From positions 1 to 26,696 of the IMG/VR virus record IMGVR_UViG_3300024336_000042: a stretch of 26,696 nucleotides of DNA; one strand, 5' to 3'. Every line of letters starts with the position of its first letter. The stretch's first letter is position 1. The notes beneath the pieces are model-generated. The model was not told the origin of the DNA, searched no databases, and saw only the letters and a list, made by a program, of their open reading frames with translations. Positions 8,219 through 16,985 of the stretch are shown here, piece by piece. This stretch comes from a virus. The position numbers and the translations under genes are program-made.

Positions 8219-8860
8219 ATGAGTGACATTATTTATTTACAGAACGTACGTCTGTCTTTCCCTCACCTGACCGAGCCTCATGCGTCGGCGCAAGGTGCAA
8301 TCCCTAAGTTCGCTGCTGACTTCATCATGCCTACTGACCACCCTGGTTATCAGCAGTTCATGGCACGTTACGGCGAACTGGCTCTTGCTGAGTGGAAGGA
8401 ACACGCACAGCAAGTTATGACCATGATTCAAGCTGACCGTAAACTACGTAACTACGGTACGGGAGAGGAGAAGATCAACAAGCAGACTTTCCAACCATAC
8501 GACGGTTACGCTGGACAGGTGTGGATCATGGCTAACAACAAGAACATGCCTCAGATGATCAAGACTGATGGTGTTCAGGTTGATGCCGGTAACACGATGG
8601 AGGCACAATCTGTTACCCGTACCATGTATGGTGGTTGTTACGTGAATGCAGCGATCAAACCGTGGGTTCAGGATAACCAATTCGGCAAGGGCATCCGTTG
8701 TGATCTGATCGCGGTTCAGTTCGCCGGTGACGGTGAGGCGTTTGGTGAAGGCGCTCCCGATGCTAGTGGTATGTTTGGAGCAGTAGGTGCAGCAACACCT
8801 CCTGTAGCAGCGGCACCAGCGGCTCCTGTAGCACCTGAACTACCACCGTTCATGCAGTAA
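8219..8860 (+). CDS. DUF2815 ssDNA-binding-like protein, 213 aa
   Basis: Opening LQNVRLSFPHLTEP, then PKFAADFIMPTDHP, and later MYGGCYVNAAIKPWVQDNQF with RCDLIAVQFAGDGEAFG fit DUF2815, an OB-fold family held to be phage single-stranded DNA-binding proteins. After the fold (about residues 1-180) comes an Ala/Pro tail ending APELPPFMQ, an acidic-hydrophobic tip reminiscent of the SSB C-terminal peptide that recruits partners (DIPF in E. coli SSB). AAGGAA lies upstream of the 8219 start. It sits between the RecB-like nuclease and DNA polymerase, the usual DUF2800-DUF2815-polymerase order in phages. Confidence 0.8.
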   Translation: MSDIIYLQNVRLSFPHLTEPHASAQGAIPKFAADFIMPTDHPGYQQFMARYGELALAEWKEHAQQVMTMIQADRKLRNYGTGEEKINKQTFQPYDGYAGQVWIMANNKNMPQMIKTDGVQVDAGNTMEAQSVTRTMYGGCYVNAAIKPWVQDNQFGKGIRCDLIAVQFAGDGEAFGEGAPDASGMFGAVGAATPPVAAAPAAPVAPELPPFMQ

Positions 8861-8865
8861 GTTAC

Positions 8866-8906
8866 CCGACATGTCGGTGTTGTCCCTACCGAAACGAAAA
8901 GGGACA
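8866..8906 (+). promoter_or_regulatory. Two small inverted repeats in the polymerase leader
   Basis: A perfect 12-bp palindrome CCGACATGTCGG (8866-8877) is followed by TGTCCC (8881-8886) pairing with GGGACA (8901-8906). They occupy most of the gap before the DNA polymerase gene. No U-tract is present. They may set mRNA stability or translation, or bind a protein; either is only a suggestion. Confidence 0.35.
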
Positions 8907-8929
8907 TCTAATTCTAATGGAGAATGGCT

Positions 8930-10789
8930 GTGAACAACGATTACATCTACGACATCGAGACATACCCCAACTGCTTCACGTTGGCGGTAGAGAGTGCTGA
9001 TGCACCGTTCCAATGGATGTTTGAGATCTCACCCTGGAAGAACGATTCCAGAGGGATCATTGAGTTCCTACATGGAATCAAGGCCCAGAACGGGCGTATG
9101 GTCGGGTTCAACAATGTCGGGTTCGACTACCCTGTGATACATTCACTGGTCCAGATGGGTAACGCTACACCTCAAGCCCTGTACCAGAAAGCAATGGCTA
9201 TCATTGGTTCGCAGAACGAGGATCGGTTCGCTCATTGGGTCAAACCCTCTGATCGGTTCGTGGAGCAGCTGGATCTGTTCAAGGTTCACCACTTCGACAA
9301 CATGGCACGATCCACCAGTTTGAAGATTCTGGAGTTCAACATGAGAATGGACAACATCGAGGATCTACCGTTCCCTGTAGGTACTGAGTTGAACCAGCAG
9401 CAGATAGAGGTACTGAAGAAGTACAACAAGCATGATGTGAAGGCTACCAAACAGTTCTACCATGAGTCCTTGCCTATGATCTCATTCCGTGAGGAGCTGA
9501 CTCATAAGTACCAGCGTGACTTCATGAACCACAACGATACGAAGATCGGTAAGGATTACTTCCAGATGAAGCTGGAGGAGGCAGGTGTTCAACTGTACTC
9601 GTTCGGTCAAGGTGGACGTAGACCAGTACAGACTCCACGACCTGTGATCAAGCTGAACGAGTGCATATTACCCTCGATCCAGTTCGAGCAATCTGAGTTC
9701 ACCCGTGTACTAAACTGGTTGAAGAGTCAGGAGATTGTTGAGACCAAGGGTGTGTTCAAAGGTCTGATTGCTACCATTAAAGGGTTCCATTTTGTATTCG
9801 GTCTCGGTGGCATTCATGGATCAATTGACTCCGAGGTGGTGGAGTCCGATGATGAGTACACGCTAGAGGATTGGGATGTTGCGAGTTACTACCCTAACCT
9901 GGCAATCGCTAACAACTTCCACCCTGAGCACCTGGGAGACACCTTCTGCTCAATTTATAAGCACCTGTACGAACAACGTAAGGGTCACAAGAAAGGCACT
10001 GCCGAGAACGCCATGCTGAAGCTGGCACTCAATGGAGTGTACGGTGACAGCAACAGTAAGTTCAGCGTGTTCTACGATCCTCAGTTCACTATGAGTATCA
10101 CCCTCAATGGTCAGCTACTGCTGTGCAAACTGGCAGAAGAGTTAATGAAGGTTCCTGATCTGCGTTTGATCCAGATCAATACAGACGGTCTCACTATCCG
10201 CTATCCAAGGGGTTACAAGGACCATGTTCATTCAGTATGTAAGTGGTGGGAGGATATGACAAGGTTAGAGCTGGAGAGCGCGGTGTACTCTCGCATGTTC
10301 ATTCGTGATGTGAATAATTACATCGCTGAATACGAAGGTGGTGGGGTCAAGCGTAAGGGTACTTATGAGTATGATCTAGGGTGGCACCAGAACGCCTCTG
10401 CGCTGGTCATCCCAATGGTTGCCGAGCAGGTATTGTTGCATGGTGTGTCGATTCGGGAAACACTTGAGTCACATGGTAACAAGATGGACTTCATGCTGAG
10501 AACCAAAGTACCACGCAGCAGTAAGCTGGTACAGGTGAGTGAAGATGGTACTGACTACCAGATCCAGAATGTTACAAGATATTACATTGCGGAAGGCGGG
10601 AATAAATTGATAAAACTCATGCCTCCGACACCGAAGATGTTGAGTGAAGGTAAGACGGACTGGAGAAGGATCGGTATCGAGTCAGGATGGGGAGTACAGG
10701 TGTGCAACAATTTAGAAGATCAGGACTTGCCAATAGATTACAACTATTACGTGCAGGAAATAGAGAAAAGAATACTGGGGTTAGCATAA
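8930..10789 (+). CDS. Family B DNA polymerase with 3'-5' exonuclease, 619 aa
   Basis: Replicative polymerase. Exonuclease motifs: ExoI YDIETYP (D8, E10), ExoII GRMVGFNNVGFDYP, ExoIII YNKHDVKATKQF. Polymerase motifs: A DVASYYPNLAI (D316), B KLALNGVYGDSNSKFS (K364), C QINTDGLTI (D419). Motif C reads NTDG instead of the usual DTDS: the second, catalytic Asp stays and the first is Asn. It is short for family B. I prefer GTG at 8930, 7 nt after GGAG; the ATG at 8924 lies 1 nt after that GGAG and is probably part of the AATGGAGAATGG leader. The stop overlaps the next start (TAATG). Confidence 0.9.
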   Translation: MNNDYIYDIETYPNCFTLAVESADAPFQWMFEISPWKNDSRGIIEFLHGIKAQNGRMVGFNNVGFDYPVIHSLVQMGNATPQALYQKAMAIIGSQNEDRFAHWVKPSDRFVEQLDLFKVHHFDNMARSTSLKILEFNMRMDNIEDLPFPVGTELNQQQIEVLKKYNKHDVKATKQFYHESLPMISFREELTHKYQRDFMNHNDTKIGKDYFQMKLEEAGVQLYSFGQGGRRPVQTPRPVIKLNECILPSIQFEQSEFTRVLNWLKSQEIVETKGVFKGLIATIKGFHFVFGLGGIHGSIDSEVVESDDEYTLEDWDVASYYPNLAIANNFHPEHLGDTFCSIYKHLYEQRKGHKKGTAENAMLKLALNGVYGDSNSKFSVFYDPQFTMSITLNGQLLLCKLAEELMKVPDLRLIQINTDGLTIRYPRGYKDHVHSVCKWWEDMTRLELESAVYSRMFIRDVNNYIAEYEGGGVKRKGTYEYDLGWHQNASALVIPMVAEQVLLHGVSIRETLESHGNKMDFMLRTKVPRSSKLVQVSEDGTDYQIQNVTRYYIAEGGNKLIKLMPPTPKMLSEGKTDWRRIGIESGWGVQVCNNLEDQDLPIDYNYYVQEIEKRILGLA

Positions 10790-11070
10790 TGTTGGAAAAG
10801 ACAATAGAAAAGAAGGTCAAGGACTACGCGAAGAGCAAAGAGTGCCTGGCCTACAAGTTCACCTCACCTGCTAGACGATCAGTACCCGATGGTATGTTCA
10901 TAACCCCACTGGGTACAGTGTTCTTCATTGAGTTCAAGCAGCTCGGTAAGAAGCCAACACCAGGACAGGAGCGTGAGATCAAGCGACTACAGGAGCAGTA
11001 TGTTTCCGTGTTCATTGTGGACAATGTGGAGACAGGTAAGCAGATCATTGATGACATGGTGGCGTTGTGA
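10789..11070 (+). CDS. VRR-NUC domain nuclease, 93 aa
   Basis: Stand-alone VRR-NUC fold of the PD-(D/E)XK superfamily: P33-D34 in SVPDGMFI, the E48-F49-K50 triad in FFIEFKQLG, and Q60 in PTPGQERE, followed by a conserved-looking SVFIVDNVETG strand. The whole protein is little more than this domain, as is usual in phages, where such proteins probably cut branched DNA such as Holliday junctions. The start ATG at 10789 shares a base with the polymerase stop, and its end overlaps the next start (GTGA), so it is tightly coupled within the replication operon. Confidence 0.85.
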   Translation: MLEKTIEKKVKDYAKSKECLAYKFTSPARRSVPDGMFITPLGTVFFIEFKQLGKKPTPGQEREIKRLQEQYVSVFIVDNVETGKQIIDDMVAL

Positions 11071-11627
11071 AAGTTTTAGTCGCTTGCGAATACAGCGGAG
11101 TGGTGAGGGATGCTTTCACCAAGAAAGGTCACTTTGCTATGAGTTGTGATTTGCTACCTTCTGATGCACCAGACGGGTTTCATCATCAAGGTGATATGTT
11201 CGATATTGACTTTTCTCTATTTGATTTGGTTATCGCTCACCCTCCCTGCACCACTGTATGTGTTTCAGGCAATCGTCACTACGCGAACACACAAGATCGG
11301 TTAGATGGAGCAGAATTCGTGAAGAAGGTGTGGGAGATACCGGTAGATAAACTTGTCATTGAGAACCCAGTCGGTGTTCTCAATACGATGGTGTCAGAAC
11401 TACCTAAACCTCAGTACATTCAGCCTTGGCAGTTCGGTCACGGTGAAACAAAGAAGACGGGTTTGTGGAAGAGAGGTTTACCTGATCTGACACCCACTAA
11501 CGTGGTGGAAGGAAGAGATGATCGTATACATAAAATGCCTCCTTCAGAGGACCGATGGAAGATCCGCTCCACTACATACCAAGGTATCGCTGATGCAATG
11601 GCTGATCAGTGGGGTGGTTCATGCTAA
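11067..11627 (+). CDS. C5-cytosine-methyltransferase-like protein, 186 aa
   Basis: It starts VLVACEYSGVVRDAF (motif I-like AdoMet site), has SCDLLPSD (motif II-like), GDMFDIDF, then LVIAHPPCT with the PPC of the catalytic loop (C61) and VIENPVGVL (ENP, in place of the ENV motif). The target-recognition region and later motifs of full C5 enzymes, which are usually over 300 aa, are missing. Short proteins of this type are frequent in phages and annotated as DNA methylases; activity is not assured. Start GTG at 11067 overlaps the VRR-NUC stop, and the end overlaps the helicase start. Likely role: modification of phage DNA against restriction, or a relative with another base-modifying role. Confidence 0.7.
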   Translation: MKVLVACEYSGVVRDAFTKKGHFAMSCDLLPSDAPDGFHHQGDMFDIDFSLFDLVIAHPPCTTVCVSGNRHYANTQDRLDGAEFVKKVWEIPVDKLVIENPVGVLNTMVSELPKPQYIQPWQFGHGETKKTGLWKRGLPDLTPTNVVEGRDDRIHKMPPSEDRWKIRSTTYQGIADAMADQWGGSC

Positions 11628-13948
11628 CCCAAGATCTACTCCATCCCTACCAGCAGAAGGCCGTGACCTGGCAGTGCGACAAACCAAACAGTGCCATATT
11701 CATGGACATGGGTTTAGGTAAGTCAGTGGTTACGCTCACAAGCATGGTGAACCTGCTCAACAGCGGGTTCCTTAGAGGTGTACTTATCATCGCCCCTGTA
11801 CGTGTGGTACGTCTCGTCTGGAGACAGGAGTCTGTCAAGTGGGAGCATACGAAACACCTATCATTCTCCACGATGGTCGGCACCAAGGATCAGCGCACCC
11901 GTGCATTGTTGAGAGATGCTGATGTACACATGATCAACTATGAGAATATGGGGTGGTTGGCTGAGATGCTGAACACCTACTATATCTCCAAAGGGAAACC
12001 ATTACCGTTCAATGGTGTGGTGTTCGATGAACTGTCGAAGATGAAGAACAGTACCACTCGCAGAGTCAAGTCGTTCATGAAGATCCATAACCACTTCCAC
12101 TGGACCACCGGACTCACGGGTACACCAGCGAGTAACGGCTACAAGGATCTGCATGGTCAGTTCCTGGTACTTGACGGTGGTCAGAGATTGGGTCGCTACA
12201 AGACAGCGTTTAAAACCAAGTTCTACCGGAAAGTAGGACCGTATAAAGAGGTTCCTTATGATGACACAGAGGGTCGCATTACTCAGTTGATCGGTGACAT
12301 TACACTGGAGATGAGTGCAGAGGACTATAACCCTCTACCTGATCTGATGATGAACGACATCAAGCTGGACTTCCCTCCTAAGTTACGCACGAAGTATGAC
12401 CAGATGGAGAAGGACTTTTTCCTACAGCTGGAGAACGGTGACAGTGTAGAGGTGTTCAACGCAGCAGCTCTTACCAATAAGCTACTCCAGTTCAGCAATG
12501 GTGCTATCTATCCAGTAGCCGGTATGCCCCTCTGGGAGCCTCTGCACGACCTTAAACTGGATGCCCTTGATGACATCATAGAAGAGGCGGCGGGACAGCC
12601 TGTGCTGTGCTCTTACGCCTACAGGAGCGATGCCTCACGGATCATGGAGAGGTTCAAGGGCATTAGACCAATTAACCTGACTGACTGTAAGAGTGAGACC
12701 AGTTTGACAACAGCGATGCAGAGGTGGCGCGATGGTGACTGCCAGCTGATGATCGGACACGCTGCCTGTGTACATCCTAGGACTCAAGTGTTGATTGAAC
12801 GGCGAGGATGGGTTAAGATCGTAGACGTTAGACCACATGAGCGAGTGTTCGACGGTGTTGAGTTTGTGAACCATGATGGCTGCTCATACTCTGGTTACAG
12901 AGAGGTGATTGATCTATTTGGTATAACTCTGACACCAGATCACAAACTTCTAATTGATGATGAATGGGTGGAGGCACAGAATGTTAAAAGTACTGAGGAA
13001 GTTAGAAGAAAAGCGATTTACAGGTGGGAAGATGAGAACGCAGGCAGTGGTAGTATGCTTGAACTGTGGGGGGAGGCAGACCATGCTCCACCAGAATGCG
13101 ATGAGTCACAACAGAAAAGGAAGCACTCATTGTGCACTCTGTATAGACGAGACATTCCATCGGATGACCAATACCCGAATCTGGAGAATCTGGCAAGGAC
13201 TGAGACACCGAGCCAAGGATCGCTCGGACAAGAATTATGCGGGACGTGGGATAGCCTTATGTCCCGAATGGGAGGACTTCACCAACTTCTACGCCGATAT
13301 GTCAGAAGGCTACTCGGACGAATTGACCATAGAACGCATAGACGTCAATGGTCATTACTGCAAGGACAATTGCAGATGGGTTACGAACATGGAACAGCAG
13401 GCCAACAAGCGCAACAACAGATGGCTGGAATACCAAGGAGAGCGAATCCATTTAGCGGAACTGGTGCGCAGGAGCGGATTCAGCAAAATGATGTTGACCA
13501 TGAGACTCAATCGTGGGATGACAGCAGACGAAGCAGTGGAGAGCTGCAAGAACTCAACTTACGGGAAAAGTCAGAGTGCGGTCAACCGTCGGAGAAGAGA
13601 AAAGCGCAAGTCTACGACCTAGTGAACTGTGGGCCTCGTCATCGGTTCCTGATTCGTAACGATGAGGGTGAAATGTTCATTTCTCATAATTCGATGGGAC
13701 ATGGAATTGACGGATTACAGAAGAACGGACACACGCTTGTATGGTACGGACTCAACTGGAGCCTGGACCTCTATGAGCAGTTCAACGCACGTATTCGCAG
13801 ACAAGGACAAGGAACCCCTGTCATCTGTCATCGAATCATGGTTGATGGAACACTGGATCAAGCACAGGCTGACGCGCTTGATGGTAAGGCTACAACCCAG
13901 TCGGCACTGAGAGCAGCAATTAAGAATTATATGGAGAAGAAACTGTGA
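11621..13948 (+). CDS. SNF2/superfamily 2 helicase interrupted by an intein, 775 aa precursor (about 467 aa after splicing)
   Basis: Motif I MDMGLGKS (about 29-35), motif Ia-like LIIAPVRVVRLVW, motif II FDELSK (DELS at 136-139 in place of DEAH), motif III LTGTPAS (TGTP 166-169), and C-terminal motifs V/VI split by an intein: LMIGHAA | intein | SMGHGIDGLQ, then QFNARIRRQGQ. Joining the two sides restores the phage SNF2 pattern 'lmigHaaSmGHGidgLQ'. It probably remodels forks or protein-DNA complexes. I use ATG 11621 (MLTQDLLHPYQQ), which overlaps the preceding stop; a GTG at 11609 is an alternative. Intein residues are 383-690. An HNH gene overlaps the intein linker in the +1 frame. Confidence 0.85.
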   Translation: MLTQDLLHPYQQKAVTWQCDKPNSAIFMDMGLGKSVVTLTSMVNLLNSGFLRGVLIIAPVRVVRLVWRQESVKWEHTKHLSFSTMVGTKDQRTRALLRDADVHMINYENMGWLAEMLNTYYISKGKPLPFNGVVFDELSKMKNSTTRRVKSFMKIHNHFHWTTGLTGTPASNGYKDLHGQFLVLDGGQRLGRYKTAFKTKFYRKVGPYKEVPYDDTEGRITQLIGDITLEMSAEDYNPLPDLMMNDIKLDFPPKLRTKYDQMEKDFFLQLENGDSVEVFNAAALTNKLLQFSNGAIYPVAGMPLWEPLHDLKLDALDDIIEEAAGQPVLCSYAYRSDASRIMERFKGIRPINLTDCKSETSLTTAMQRWRDGDCQLMIGHAACVHPRTQVLIERRGWVKIVDVRPHERVFDGVEFVNHDGCSYSGYREVIDLFGITLTPDHKLLIDDEWVEAQNVKSTEEVRRKAIYRWEDENAGSGSMLELWGEADHAPPECDESQQKRKHSLCTLYRRDIPSDDQYPNLENLARTETPSQGSLGQELCGTWDSLMSRMGGLHQLLRRYVRRLLGRIDHRTHRRQWSLLQGQLQMGYEHGTAGQQAQQQMAGIPRRANPFSGTGAQERIQQNDVDHETQSWDDSRRSSGELQELNLREKSECGQPSEKRKAQVYDLVNCGPRHRFLIRNDEGEMFISHNSMGHGIDGLQKNGHTLVWYGLNWSLDLYEQFNARIRRQGQGTPVICHRIMVDGTLDQAQADALDGKATTQSALRAAIKNYMEKKL
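12767..13690 (+). mobile_element. Intein (Hint-type, 308 aa) inserted in helicase motif V
   Basis: The N-terminal splicing part starts at Cys1 (TGT 12767-12769): CVHPRTQVLIERRGWVKI, then block B GITLTPDHKLL with the T-x-x-H pattern. The C-terminal part is VYDLVNCGPRHRFLIRN, then GEMFISHN ending in His-Asn (block G), followed by Ser+1 of the extein (TCG 13691). These are the residues needed for class 1 protein splicing. The linker in the helicase frame (about 12985-13610) is Gln/Arg/Ser-rich, shows no LAGLIDADG or HNH pattern in that frame, yet has no stop codon. The insertion point lies in the conserved ATPase motif V, a usual kind of intein target. Confidence 0.88.
12981..13622 (+). CDS. HNH homing endonuclease encoded in the +1 frame inside the intein, 213 aa
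   Basis: Start ATG 12981 has GGAGG at 12970-12974 with a 6-nt spacer; an alternative ATG at 13032 has AGGTGGG upstream. N-terminal zinc finger C26/C29 (CLNCGG) with C51/C54 (HCALC). HNH core from about 60 to 146: HRMTNTRIWRIWQGLRHRAK, NYAGRGIALCPEWEDF, TNFYADMSEG, TIERIDVNGHY, NCRWVTNMEQQ. A C-terminal DNA-binding part (YQGERIHLAELVRRSG) ends in a basic tail. The core matches phage HNH homing endonucleases. It lies wholly between the two splicing halves and is +1 relative to the helicase/intein frame, so it cannot be part of the precursor without a frameshift. Confidence 0.85.
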   Translation: MLKVLRKLEEKRFTGGKMRTQAVVVCLNCGGRQTMLHQNAMSHNRKGSTHCALCIDETFHRMTNTRIWRIWQGLRHRAKDRSDKNYAGRGIALCPEWEDFTNFYADMSEGYSDELTIERIDVNGHYCKDNCRWVTNMEQQANKRNNRWLEYQGERIHLAELVRRSGFSKMMLTMRLNRGMTADEAVESCKNSTYGKSQSAVNRRRREKRKSTT

Positions 13949-14154
13949 CAACAACAAAAATCAAAGCCAGAGTAGACAGCGAGTTTGATCTGCTACTGAA
14001 CCGTACTCTTAAAGAGATGTCCTTGAACAACGAAATGCTACGACCAGAGGATATGGCGTACTTCGACCTGCAGGGGTACATCAGAGACGCAGCGGGGTAC
14101 CTCCACATTACCGATGAGCGGTTGATCGCCGATGTACAGGCAGAGTTGGCGTAA
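13945..14154 (+). CDS. Hypothetical protein, 69 aa
   Basis: Starts with GTG at 13945, overlapping the helicase stop (GTGA), so it is translationally coupled to the helicase; ATGGAGAAG at about 13930-13938 supplies the ribosome site. The protein is acidic and mostly helical (VDSEFDLLLNRTLKEM, then EDMAYFDLQGYIRDAAGYL). No catalytic or metal-binding residues and no known family seen. Its stop overlaps the next start (TAATG). Its place directly after the helicase suggests an accessory role in replication, but this is position only. Confidence 0.7.
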   Translation: MTTTKIKARVDSEFDLLLNRTLKEMSLNNEMLRPEDMAYFDLQGYIRDAAGYLHITDERLIADVQAELA

Positions 14155-14462
14155 TGCTTGACATGAACAAAAGCCAATCCATAAACTTTGTTATAAGAGA
14201 AGGTCTCTATAACTTCGGTAAATGGGCCACAGCCTCCGAGGCATTCAGCATGGTCAAAGACGAGCTGCCGTACACTCAGGGGCAGATCACCACCAAATTA
14301 AACGCGATGGGTAAGAGAGGAGCCATCTTGTCGCGTTTAGAAGAGGATGGGTCAGTAATGTACAAGTTCAAAGGTCATTCAGTGGCCTGTAAAAAAGAAC
14401 CAGCACCAGAGCCGTACGATAAGCTGATGTGGATGATTCACGCAGCGAGGTGGACAGCATGA
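14154..14462 (+). CDS. Hypothetical protein, possible winged-helix, 102 aa
   Basis: The start at 14154 shares a base with the preceding stop; ATG 14163 is an alternative. The part FGKWATASEAFSMVKDELPY, then TQGQITTKLNAMGKRGAILS, then a beta pair around EEDGSVMYKFKG, has the helix-helix-helix-wing order of winged-helix DNA-binding domains ('vs..l..m.krG.i.r...dg...Y'). A proline-rich hinge and a short Trp-containing tail follow. The family is not recognised and the winged-helix idea rests on pattern alone. Its stop overlaps the next start (ATGA). Confidence 0.7.
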   Translation: MLDMNKSQSINFVIREGLYNFGKWATASEAFSMVKDELPYTQGQITTKLNAMGKRGAILSRLEEDGSVMYKFKGHSVACKKEPAPEPYDKLMWMIHAARWTA

Positions 14463-14632
14463 ACCCCGCGAACCTATCAGGACTACTGCACAGCGTACGT
14501 ATGCAACTGCGACACACTAAAACCAAATACGCACAGCGACCCAACGTGTACTGGCACAATGAAATGAGGAAGTATGAGCTGGCCAGCGAGGTTATATCAG
14601 ACTATGTGGAGCGATCCAATAAAGGAGCATGA
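14459..14632 (+). CDS. Small hypothetical protein, 57 aa, basic helical
   Basis: The start at 14459 overlaps the preceding stop (ATGA); an upstream in-frame ATG at 14429 lies within the previous gene and is less likely. The protein is basic with a helical N-terminal half (LLHSVRMQLRHTKTKYAQR) and an amphipathic C-terminal helix (EMRKYELASEVISDYVE). No recognised domain. It is part of the chain of one- to four-base overlaps that marks this operon. Its length and charge would fit a nucleic-acid-associated protein, but nothing specific supports that. Confidence 0.65.
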   Translation: MNPANLSGLLHSVRMQLRHTKTKYAQRPNVYWHNEMRKYELASEVISDYVERSNKGA

Positions 14633-14633
14633 C

Positions 14634-15053
14634 ATGAAACTACATGGCGAAGAAATCAAAGTTGGTGACAAGGTTTGGGATATTATTGAGGGTTGGGGAA
14701 TAGTAGAGCGAATAGACTCAAACAATTTCCCGATTGTTGTTAGCGGACACTCATATAACAGCAAAGGGAAAGACAACACACTAGATATCAACCCCACTAT
14801 CTTCTGGGATGAGGTACATATCACTCCACCACCTACACCAAAACGTGAGATCGACTGGTCTAAAGTACCGGAGAATACGCTGGTTAGAGTGTGGGACAGG
14901 GATTGGGAGAACCACAGAATTGCTGAGTATTATACGTACGATACGGTTCAGGCACCCTACAATTACTTGGTGCAAGGGAGTAGCGGTCATCGCTGCTACA
15001 AACATTGCGAACTTCACGAATCAGTAACTCCACTGCGTGAGTGGTACAAATAA
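14634..15053 (+). CDS. Hypothetical protein with SH3-like repeat, 139 aa
   Basis: The start at 14634 has AAAGGAG at about 14622-14628. The N-terminal half (IKVGDKVWDIIEGWGIVERI) has the 'vGdkVwd...G.G.V..i' pattern of small SH3-like barrels seen in phage and transcription-associated proteins. The second half has another beta-rich segment (ENTLVRVWDRDWENHRIAEY), so there may be two barrels joined by a proline-rich hinge (ITPPPTPKREIDW). Two Cys near the C-terminus (CYKHC). No enzyme motifs. It is the last gene of the block before a 125-bp gap. Confidence 0.75.
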   Translation: MKLHGEEIKVGDKVWDIIEGWGIVERIDSNNFPIVVSGHSYNSKGKDNTLDINPTIFWDEVHITPPPTPKREIDWSKVPENTLVRVWDRDWENHRIAEYYTYDTVQAPYNYLVQGSSGHRCYKHCELHESVTPLREWYK

Positions 15054-15178
15054 AGAGAACACACGTTACTACTTAAACTTTAACATTTTTGAAGTTAGGC
15101 GTAGTGGCTAGAAGAGCAGAACCCGCGCTGTGAGATGTGTAAAAAGACGGGGACTAATTTAAGTCTAGGAGAGTCAAG

Positions 15179-15415
15179 ATGAGTGATTGGATAACTAAGC
15201 TGTCAAAAGAGGATCAATCGGCAATACGAACGCTAGGCGGTGCAATGTGGGATATGCCTAAACCAGAGGAATTTGCATCTTTAGCACACCTACTGCATGA
15301 AGTGAGAGGTCGTATTGGTTCTGCATCTTCACTTATTACACAAGCAGATATGGTCTTGAAGGGCGGTGAGTACTTCATGGGGCTTTATCGAACGACAACT
15401 GGAGAATCAAGATGA
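15179..15415 (+). CDS. Hypothetical protein, 78 aa
   Basis: First gene after a 125-bp gap. TAGGAGAG at about 15166-15173 gives a good ribosome site. The protein is a mix of helices (ITKLSKEDQSAIRTLG, then FASLAHLLHEVRGRIGSA) with no transmembrane segment and no recognised domain. It starts an accessory block of short genes linked by ATGA overlaps. The gap upstream (15054-15178) shows no clear promoter or terminator, only a weak hairpin and a possible 15-residue peptide. Confidence 0.7.
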   Translation: MSDWITKLSKEDQSAIRTLGGAMWDMPKPEEFASLAHLLHEVRGRIGSASSLITQADMVLKGGEYFMGLYRTTTGESR

Positions 15416-15624
15416 GTAAAGTTTGGGTAGTGACCCGAGAAATTAACGAGTACAACCAAGATGGTGAGTATTTTGTAGAGGCATTCAAAAACAAACCTAC
15501 ATTTCAGCAATTGAAAAAACTGCTTAATGGAGATGATGTGACCATTGATAAATTGACAAGAGGGGGTGGTAGACAAGGTACAGAATATGAGTGGTATAAC
15601 CTACTTGAGGAGGAGTTTCTATGA
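15412..15624 (+). CDS. Hypothetical protein, 70 aa
   Basis: Overlaps the preceding stop (ATGA). The pattern KVWVVTREINEYNQDGEYFV followed by AFKNKPTFQQLKKLL resembles small phage proteins of the 'VYVvt.eyNdY.qdGeYfvaaF..KPt...L' type, which I recall as frequent but of unknown function. A Gly-rich stretch (RGGGRQG) precedes an acidic C-terminus, whose coding DNA carries GAGGAGG, the ribosome-binding site of the next gene. Translational coupling to both neighbours is likely. Confidence 0.75.
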   Translation: MSKVWVVTREINEYNQDGEYFVEAFKNKPTFQQLKKLLNGDDVTIDKLTRGGGRQGTEYEWYNLLEEEFL

Positions 15625-15860
15625 ATAGCGAATATCAGGGTGGATGGATTAGCGTTGAGGATAAGCCTGTCCCTGTAGATGAAAAGGTAATGCTTTGCTT
15701 CCCCTTAGCTAATAATGAGTATTACATCTGCTCAGGTTATATTGCGCTTGAGGACGGATCTGTATGGGCTGATAGTGATGTTGGTGAGATAGGTTACCTA
15801 TCGTGTGATATATCACATTGGCAACCACTGCCTGAAACACCAAATACTGAAGGTATTTAA
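15621..15860 (+). CDS. DUF551 domain protein, 79 aa
   Basis: GGWISVEDKPVPVDEKVMLCF at the start and DISHWQPLPETP at the end are the signature of DUF551, a short domain widespread in phages of Gram-negative bacteria ('Wisv.drlP..g..Vlv ... iTHWmplPepP'). Function unknown; it is usually found among accessory genes near host-range or nucleotide metabolism genes. The start has GAGGAGG at about 15606-15612 and overlaps the preceding stop by 4 bp. Confidence 0.85.
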   Translation: MNSEYQGGWISVEDKPVPVDEKVMLCFPLANNEYYICSGYIALEDGSVWADSDVGEIGYLSCDISHWQPLPETPNTEGI

Positions 15861-15862
15861 TT

Positions 15863-15937
15863 ATGAAAATGAGAGATACAGAAGGCGACTCCTATATTGA
15901 GAGAGAGGCTGCGGCATACTTGAGGAGTCAGCAATGA
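15863..15937 (+). CDS. Very short ORF, 24 aa
   Basis: Reads MKMRDTEGDSYIEREAAAYL and ends RSQQ. It fills the gap between two genes exactly: it starts two bases after one stop, and its TGA overlaps the next ATG (ATGA at 15934-15937). A weak AAGG lies about 9 nt upstream. The overlap pattern, the same as for its neighbours, is the main support. It could instead be the remnant of a longer gene or only a coupling leader. Confidence 0.4.
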   Translation: MKMRDTEGDSYIEREAAAYLRSQQ

Positions 15938-16254
15938 ACCAAAAGTACGCCGAAACAATCATCAAGCGCCCGTCACTCTACGAAGCCCTGGAGGTGCATG
16001 GGGCTCGTGAATATTTCAGTGACAATGAAACCAGAGCCTACTGTGAGATAGATGACAAAGACCCAGACTTCTACTCCGTTTACATCCGGTACCACGACAG
16101 CCCAGAGGTTGAGTGTATAGGTGACTTTGACAGTCCAATAGATGCCAACAACTACGCCTCAGAAATCTCTGAGAAATATGGACTCAATTGGACTATCAAC
16201 TCATACCCACCACATGAATTATTTCGGCCTTTCATCGTCCGATTTGAAGTGTAG
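15934..16254 (+). CDS. Hypothetical protein, 106 aa
   Basis: The start at 15934 overlaps the preceding stop; TTGAGGAGT upstream is a good ribosome site. The protein is acidic and beta-rich with many Tyr and Asp residues (EIDDKDPDFYSVYIRYHDSP, then CIGDFDSPIDANNYASEI). No signal peptide, membrane helix or known motif. It lies between the DUF551 gene and the DNA methyltransferase gene, with a 29-bp gap before the latter. Confidence 0.7.
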   Translation: MNQKYAETIIKRPSLYEALEVHGAREYFSDNETRAYCEIDDKDPDFYSVYIRYHDSPEVECIGDFDSPIDANNYASEISEKYGLNWTINSYPPHELFRPFIVRFEV

Positions 16255-16283
16255 TTAGGCTGAAGCTAAAGAGAGATAAAGAT

Positions 16284-16985
16284 ATGACAACAAGATTAAT
16301 GAAGGGCGATTGCCTTGAAAGGATGAAAGAGATCGAAAGTGGATCGGTTGATATGATATTAGCTGATCCGCCTTATGGAACTACCGCATGCAAGTGGGAT
16401 TCTATTATCCCACTAGAGCCTATGTGGGAGCAGTTAAAGCGAGTGATTAAGCCTAACGGGGCTATTGTTATGACTTGTGCGCAACCATTCACAAGTGTGC
16501 TAGGGGCATCCAACATTAAAGATCTAAAATACTCGTGGGTATGGGAGAAAACAGCGGCAACAGGGCATCTTAACGCTAAGCGTATGCCAATGAAGAATCA
16601 TGAAGATGCGTTAGTGTTTTATAGGAAACCCCCCACGTATAACCCACAAGGGGTTGTGGCTTGCAATAGGGTGGTTAGGCGCGGGGGGAACGGGGGGTGT
16701 TATGGTAACAGCGGCAAAGAGAACGTACAGACACTAACAAACTACCCACGAACTATCCAACGATTCAAGAGTGCCAATTCCACTGTCCACCCAACACAGA
16801 AACCTGTAGCCCTGATGGAATATCTAATCAAAACCTACACCAACGAAGGTGATACGGTGCTGGATTTTACAATGGGTAGCGGAACCACCGGCGTTGCTTG
16901 CAAGAACCTAAACCGCCGATTCATAGGCATTGAATTAGATCCCGATTATTTCAAAATTGCGGAAGATCGGATTGATGCAGCCTAA
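16284..16985 (+). CDS. DPPY-type DNA methyltransferase (N6-adenine or N4-cytosine), 233 aa
   Basis: Catalytic motif IV ADPPYGTT (DPPY 28-31) precedes the AdoMet-binding motif I DFTMGSGTTG (194-203), the order of beta-class amino-methyltransferases. NSTVHPTQKPVALMEYLIK before motif I, and RRFIGIELDPDYFKIAEDRI after it, complete the pattern. The target-recognition region lies between (about 90-165). No restriction partner is next to it, so it is probably a solitary methyltransferase that protects phage DNA or marks it. AGAGAGATAAAG is a weak ribosome site. DPPY favours adenine as substrate. Confidence 0.88.
   Translation: MTTRLMKGDCLERMKEIESGSVDMILADPPYGTTACKWDSIIPLEPMWEQLKRVIKPNGAIVMTCAQPFTSVLGASNIKDLKYSWVWEKTAATGHLNAKRMPMKNHEDALVFYRKPPTYNPQGVVACNRVVRRGGNGGCYGNSGKENVQTLTNYPRTIQRFKSANSTVHPTQKPVALMEYLIKTYTNEGDTVLDFTMGSGTTGVACKNLNRRFIGIELDPDYFKIAEDRIDAA

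Follow-up and report, generated by a model that had tools for sequence, protein, structure and literature searches.

The stretch of viral DNA considered here (the window, i.e., all 26,696 nucleotides of the IMG/VR record IMGVR_UViG_3300024336_000042) contains on its plus strand, where all parts of this locus lie, an open reading frame (ORF) for a SNF2-family helicase at 11609-13948 that reads through an insert at 12767-13690. The insert has the features of an intein, and within it, in a different frame, lies a gene of the HNH endonuclease family. The part of the helicase that precedes the insert (N-extein, 11609..12766) has a GTG start at 11609, with an alternative ATG at 11621, and ends in LMIGHAA just before the first intein residue, Cys1; it matches Pfam PF00176 (E 2.8e-17) and the DNA helicase family phrog_62. 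The C-extein (13691..13948) begins with SMGHGIDGLQ and matches phrog_11354 (E 5e-27). The insertion point falls in the motif HP[A/x]|S[M/A]GHG, common to all helicase-site inteins (25 helicases). Once spliced, the predicted helicase would have 471 amino acids (aa) from the GTG or 467 from the ATG, the latter in agreement with the length of about 467 aa anticipated in a previous reading made from the letters alone (the sequence-only reading). The positions which that reading assigned to Cys1 (12767), the TPDH and SHN|S motifs, the HNH start (ATG 12981, with GGAGG 6 nucleotides (nt) upstream) and its stop (TAG 13620-13622), together with the +1 frame of the HNH gene, were all exact.

In the precursor frame the intein (12767..13690) is 308 aa long. 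It starts with CVHP, carries TPDH as block B and ends in SHN|S at 13682-13693, and these motifs are conserved among the 24 relatives of the alignment, so that a nucleophile at position 1, a TxxH and a His-Asn pair followed by Ser, Thr or Cys are all in place. It also sits in frame within a conserved motif of the extein, and some alleles lack it. The AlphaFold2 model, obtained with the 24-member alignment, is confident for residues 1-89 and ca. 275-308, which correspond to an N-terminal splicing half at 12767..13033 (predicted local distance difference test, pLDDT, 82-95) and a C-terminal one (VYDLVNCGPRHRF...SHN) at 13589..13690, with values of about 90-93 from residue 281 on. Searching with this model in Foldseek gave top matches of which almost all were to inteins or Hint domains, with probabilities of up to 1.00 and a best E of 2e-3, in line with a Hint fold of the splicing halves; the intein profile had no match among PDB sequences, although the fold search did succeed. 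Between the halves, residues 90-274 (13034..13588) form a poorly conserved linker rich in Q, R, G and S, with pLDDT below 50 and predicted to be disordered. Its composition (Q 11.4%, R 10.3%) bears out the earlier description of a Gln/Arg-rich overprinted linker joining two splicing halves. Both halves are in one single open frame at the window locus and not on separate ORFs, as they would be in a split intein, and the endonuclease gene is in +1 and not in frame with the splicing domain, as it would be in a canonical one.

Two alternative views of the insert can be weighed at this point. In mycobacteriophage methylases, HNH genes hidden out of frame have been described in insertions that lack splicing domains, as in ShiLan and Pacc40 (PMC11855218). 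The ShiLan insert resembles the one in the window in that an HNH with a zinc-finger region lies out of frame in an insert that reads through without stops in the host frame, but it has no splicing domains, is thought to stay in the protein and uses a GTG start without a ribosome-binding site (RBS) (PMC11855218), whereas the window insert has a splicing domain of the Hint type and a start with an RBS-like sequence. That the helicase insert is of this type, with no protein splicing and the linker simply tolerated, is very improbable in view of Cys1, the TxxH of block B, the C-terminal HN|S and the confidently predicted Hint fold; besides, an unspliced insert of 308 aa in a helicase motif would be expected to abolish activity. 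An HNH gene within a group I intron, which is how a GenBank note in NC_013600.1 describes the homologous region of Sodalis phage SO-1, is hardly credible for an insert that is exactly in frame, stop-free and provided with protein-splicing motifs, and a search of 11500-14500 for the group I RNA core had no hit in Rfam with E up to 1.

The nested gene extends from ATG to TAG (12981..13622) in the +1 frame and encodes 213 aa. The protein belongs to curated families by its matches to phrog_3377 (E 4e-43) and phrog_374 (E 3e-38), no Pfam family was above threshold in the Pfam search, and the AlphaFold2 model has a mean pLDDT of 86. It has a zinc-finger-like cluster of cysteines (C26, C29, C51 and C54, at 13056..13142), of which C26, C29 and C54 are invariant in our alignment A6, followed by the HNH core LTIERIDVNGHYCKDNCRWVTNMEQQANKRNNR at 13323..13421, where R119 is invariant in the same alignment.

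The same layout has been found in many other phages, which the sequence-only reading had named as a form of support. A relative (L003) has an HNH protein 63% identical, again in +1, with 62-63% identity in both frames, and queries with the HNH or with the splicing blocks only retrieved the same arrangement in dozens of contigs; about 35 loci share it. It is also present in inteins of DNA polymerases, with the HNH in +1 in phages APSE-1, Shewanella SFCi1, Caulobacter GB2A and Gardnerella AB1, and in +2 in Sodalis SO-1, E. coli Pubbukkers, Pseudomonas MR14, Vibrio 97.13 and EBPR siphovirus 2. In addition, we have surveyed 159 further phage loci, the best 80 loci of each of two scans with splicing-block queries only, calling the frame by running an HNH profile on three frames. 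The HNH was in +1 in 78 of them and in +2 in 65; the intein frame was broken in three, and the 13 without HNH were in all cases mini-inteins. None of the 159 had an in-frame HNH, i.e., 0 of the 143 HNH-bearing loci with an open intein frame, in best-80 scans whose queries were drawn from inteins already known as nested, so that more distant in-frame relatives may exist. The proviso of the sequence-only reading that homologues might always carry the HNH in frame was therefore not borne out by these loci. In a tree of 125 HNH proteins the reading frame changes 2 times, compared to about 40 in shuffles, and the frame is thus a stable lineage trait. A scan of cellular genomes for relatives gave only two distant loci.

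In L037:1884-4154 a single ORF carries two successive nested-HNH inteins, both in +1, and stays open for 1484 codons from the first Cys1. The phage IMGVR_UViG_3300034198_010819 (L019/L079) has two nested-HNH inteins, one in the helicase and a second one upstream that was retrieved again with a polymerase-type query.

Over the whole HNH gene of the window the helicase frame has zero stops, as had been pointed out. The sequence-only reading took this as selected by means of a probability of (61/64)^214, which is the wrong null because the helicase frame is conditioned on the HNH protein. When the synonymous codons of the HNH gene were permuted, 9.3 stops were expected in the intein frame and none of the 2000 permutations was stop-free; the selected open frame therefore stands, although the figure offered for it does not. 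Over the HNH genes of 35 intact loci we found no stops in the intein frame against 297 expected, whereas the third frame had 531 against 501 expected, i.e., no depletion at all. The 143 nested loci of the survey likewise had 0 intein-frame stops, with 616 expected. A frame left open by chance is ruled out by the zero stops in these 35 and 143 loci. The substitutions in the overlap are concentrated at third positions of the HNH codons (0.32/0.25/0.53 for the three positions), and over the same DNA the amino-acid sequences diverge by 0.40 in the HNH frame versus 0.64 in that of the intein, indicating that the nuclease is under protein-level selection and that the linker is constrained mainly to remain open.

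Natural variants give a further view of the element. L006 and L023 have 93-95% identical DNA, but an in-frame deletion has removed 438 nt of the HNH gene from L006, whose intein frame and splicing motifs are kept; further shortened forms are L017, L007 and L009. The helicase of phage DSL-LC05 has an empty site, reading IGHPASMGHGIDGLQ, and branches with L018 within the intein-bearing group. Occupied, empty and HNH-deleted alleles together speak only indirectly for cleavage and homing. A few relatives are genuinely broken (L024 by a 1-nt shift; L048 is degenerate), as would be expected if the overlap were a fossil or a sequencing artefact, with a once in-frame HNH shifted by indels or mis-assembled. 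This explanation has very little to recommend it at the window locus. A second IMG/VR contig (L004) shows zero differences across window positions 8873-16945, which excludes the local sequencing indel that the sequence-only reading had allowed for; moreover, layout and frame are kept in dozens of loci in which neither ORF is interrupted, the HNH is under purifying selection and the survey loci included no in-frame relative.

In three polymerase loci (L036, L189 and L226, the last identical to L229 over the polymerase-intein stretch) an intact HNH and both splicing blocks are kept, but the intein frame is interrupted by 17, 7 and 12 stops, respectively. The N and C blocks differ in frame in L036 and L226; in L189 they share one frame, the C block coming after the stops. 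The three loci resemble split inteins that enclose a free nuclease gene, with decay as another possible origin. In these candidate fractured inteins (L036:4001-5000, L189:2501-3600 and L226:2501-3700) the C-terminal splicing blocks have possible starts of their own.

The putative signals for expression of the HNH gene lie inside the intein. The start codon is located 214 nt after Cys1 in 25 of 25 helicase-site sequences (23 ATG and 2 GTG), and in the window it is preceded by the Shine-Dalgarno-like GGAGG (12970..12974), formed by the intein codons W-V-E-A. Pairing to the anti-Shine-Dalgarno in the helicase-site group averages -7.4 kcal/mol at HNH starts versus -3.0 at other ATGs (p=6e-8). At the polymerase loci the signal was not above that of the third frame (p=0.58 and 0.11). 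The stop TAG (13620..13622) is inside the intein codons D-L-V, and in most relatives the HNH gene likewise ends within the codons for D-L-V-N in the C-terminal block, leaving 65-68 nt to the end of the intein. The conserved blocks of the intein would thus supply the expression signals of the HNH, and selection for splicing would preserve them, since they lie in those blocks.

We interpret the insert as a splicing intein with an independently translated out-of-frame HNH homing nuclease, to which we assign a probability of roughly 0.86. A mobile phage intein would occupy a conserved motif of the SNF2 helicase, and its two Hint halves, with the long disordered linker between them, would excise it from the helicase precursor. 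The linker DNA would at the same time be a complete HNH-family homing-endonuclease gene in +1, translated independently from an internal start (ATG 12981), its Shine-Dalgarno and start being drawn from the codons for residues 66-73 of the intein and its stop from the C-terminal splicing block. The free nuclease would cut intein-less helicase alleles and repair would copy the whole element; selection would maintain the nuclease sequence, the intein frame being merely kept open. Splicing, translation from the internal ATG, cleavage and homing are what we infer from sequence and predicted structure. The separately encoded, out-of-frame HNH put forward by the sequence-only reading is itself upheld by its conservation in many loci, the zero stops, the substitution pattern, the predicted structures and the HNH-deletion allele.

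Several observations weigh against this interpretation. The HNH core reads E-R-I-D versus the canonical D-H-I-D and has no canonical catalytic His, which qualifies the full core announced by the sequence-only reading; the related nested HNH proteins of APSE-1 and SO-1 likewise read DRI[ND]. Neither profile nor fold searches of the HNH protein against the PDB gave a solved relative, and the nuclease assignment therefore rests on PHROGs. Catalytic activity is likely by family membership, but with this core and no solved relative it is not assured by the motif. No close intein-free allele of the window helicase was found, the nearest being 66% identical. Finally, the GGAGG is strong, but no stronger than the residues W-V-E-A dictate by themselves (p=0.16). 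This last point would suit an intein that is able to splice but whose nested HNH is seldom or never translated alone, or in which an intein-HNH fusion made by ribosomal frameshifting is the active enzyme. We regard this as unlikely, although less so than the other alternatives, because the HNH is conserved at the protein level and must be made, and the position of the start codon is constant, with the HNH beginning exactly there.

In the usual account of inteins, a splicing domain carries its homing endonuclease in frame, as in PI-SceI and in the HNH inteins reportedly treated by Dalgaard and colleagues in 1997. The window intein shares with the canonical large ones the Hint domain and the endonuclease placed between the N- and C-terminal splicing parts; it differs in that their nuclease is within the intein polypeptide, whereas in the window it has a gene of its own that overlaps the intein frame. 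Fractured genes, in which split inteins have a free-standing endonuclease between the halves, are said to have been described by Dassa and colleagues in 2009. They are similar in having a separate endonuclease gene between intein halves, and the three interrupted polymerase loci look like them, but in the window the halves make up one continuous open frame. APSE-1 P45/P46 (NC_000935.1) and SO-1 gp38/gp39 (NC_013600.1) are closer, being polymerase inteins with an annotated overlapping HNH gene (+1 and +2, respectively), but they have another extein and a distant HNH, and their records make no mention of a nuclease nested in an intein, that of SO-1 being labelled as a self-splicing intron. Out-of-frame HNH insertions and overlapping-HNH annotations are therefore already known, whereas the splicing intein with a nested HNH appears to be new. 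We found no description of it in a literature search that excluded the preprint 10.1101/2025.01.02.630785 on non-canonical actinophage inteins, and priority is uncertain.

The balance tilts slightly towards a broader proposal, namely that in a large group of phage inteins, at helicase and DNA polymerase sites, the HNH is as a rule not an intein domain but has its own overlapping gene, locked in +1 or +2, with RBS, start and stop taken from the splicing blocks, and that split inteins whose halves flank a free-standing endonuclease could arise by way of this overprinted state. An ordered series from the nested form to an HNH-deleted mini-intein or to a fractured gene would make such an origin of split inteins testable. 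If the nuclease is indeed a separate overprinted gene, expression of the nuclease and splicing would be uncoupled, so that dose and activity of the nuclease could evolve independently of splicing, and mobility could be lost with splicing untouched, as in L006. Protein-family searches of the precursor would then miss the nuclease (P0002 has no Pfam match). The paired frames, conserved over more than 100 loci, would also provide a clean natural system for overlapping genes.

Elsewhere in the window, a 115-aa ORF at 17593-17940 matches only the N-terminal zinc-finger part of the HNH endonuclease family phrog_374 and, with its C-terminal segment, phrog_1065; having no HNH core, it could be a remnant or a truncated HNH relative. 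To the left of 8873 (8609-8872) the second contig diverges abruptly from the window, with identity rightward, suggesting a recombination or assembly boundary. The left end of the contig is a tandem 9-nt/39-nt repeat array (9-233) that is open in several frames.
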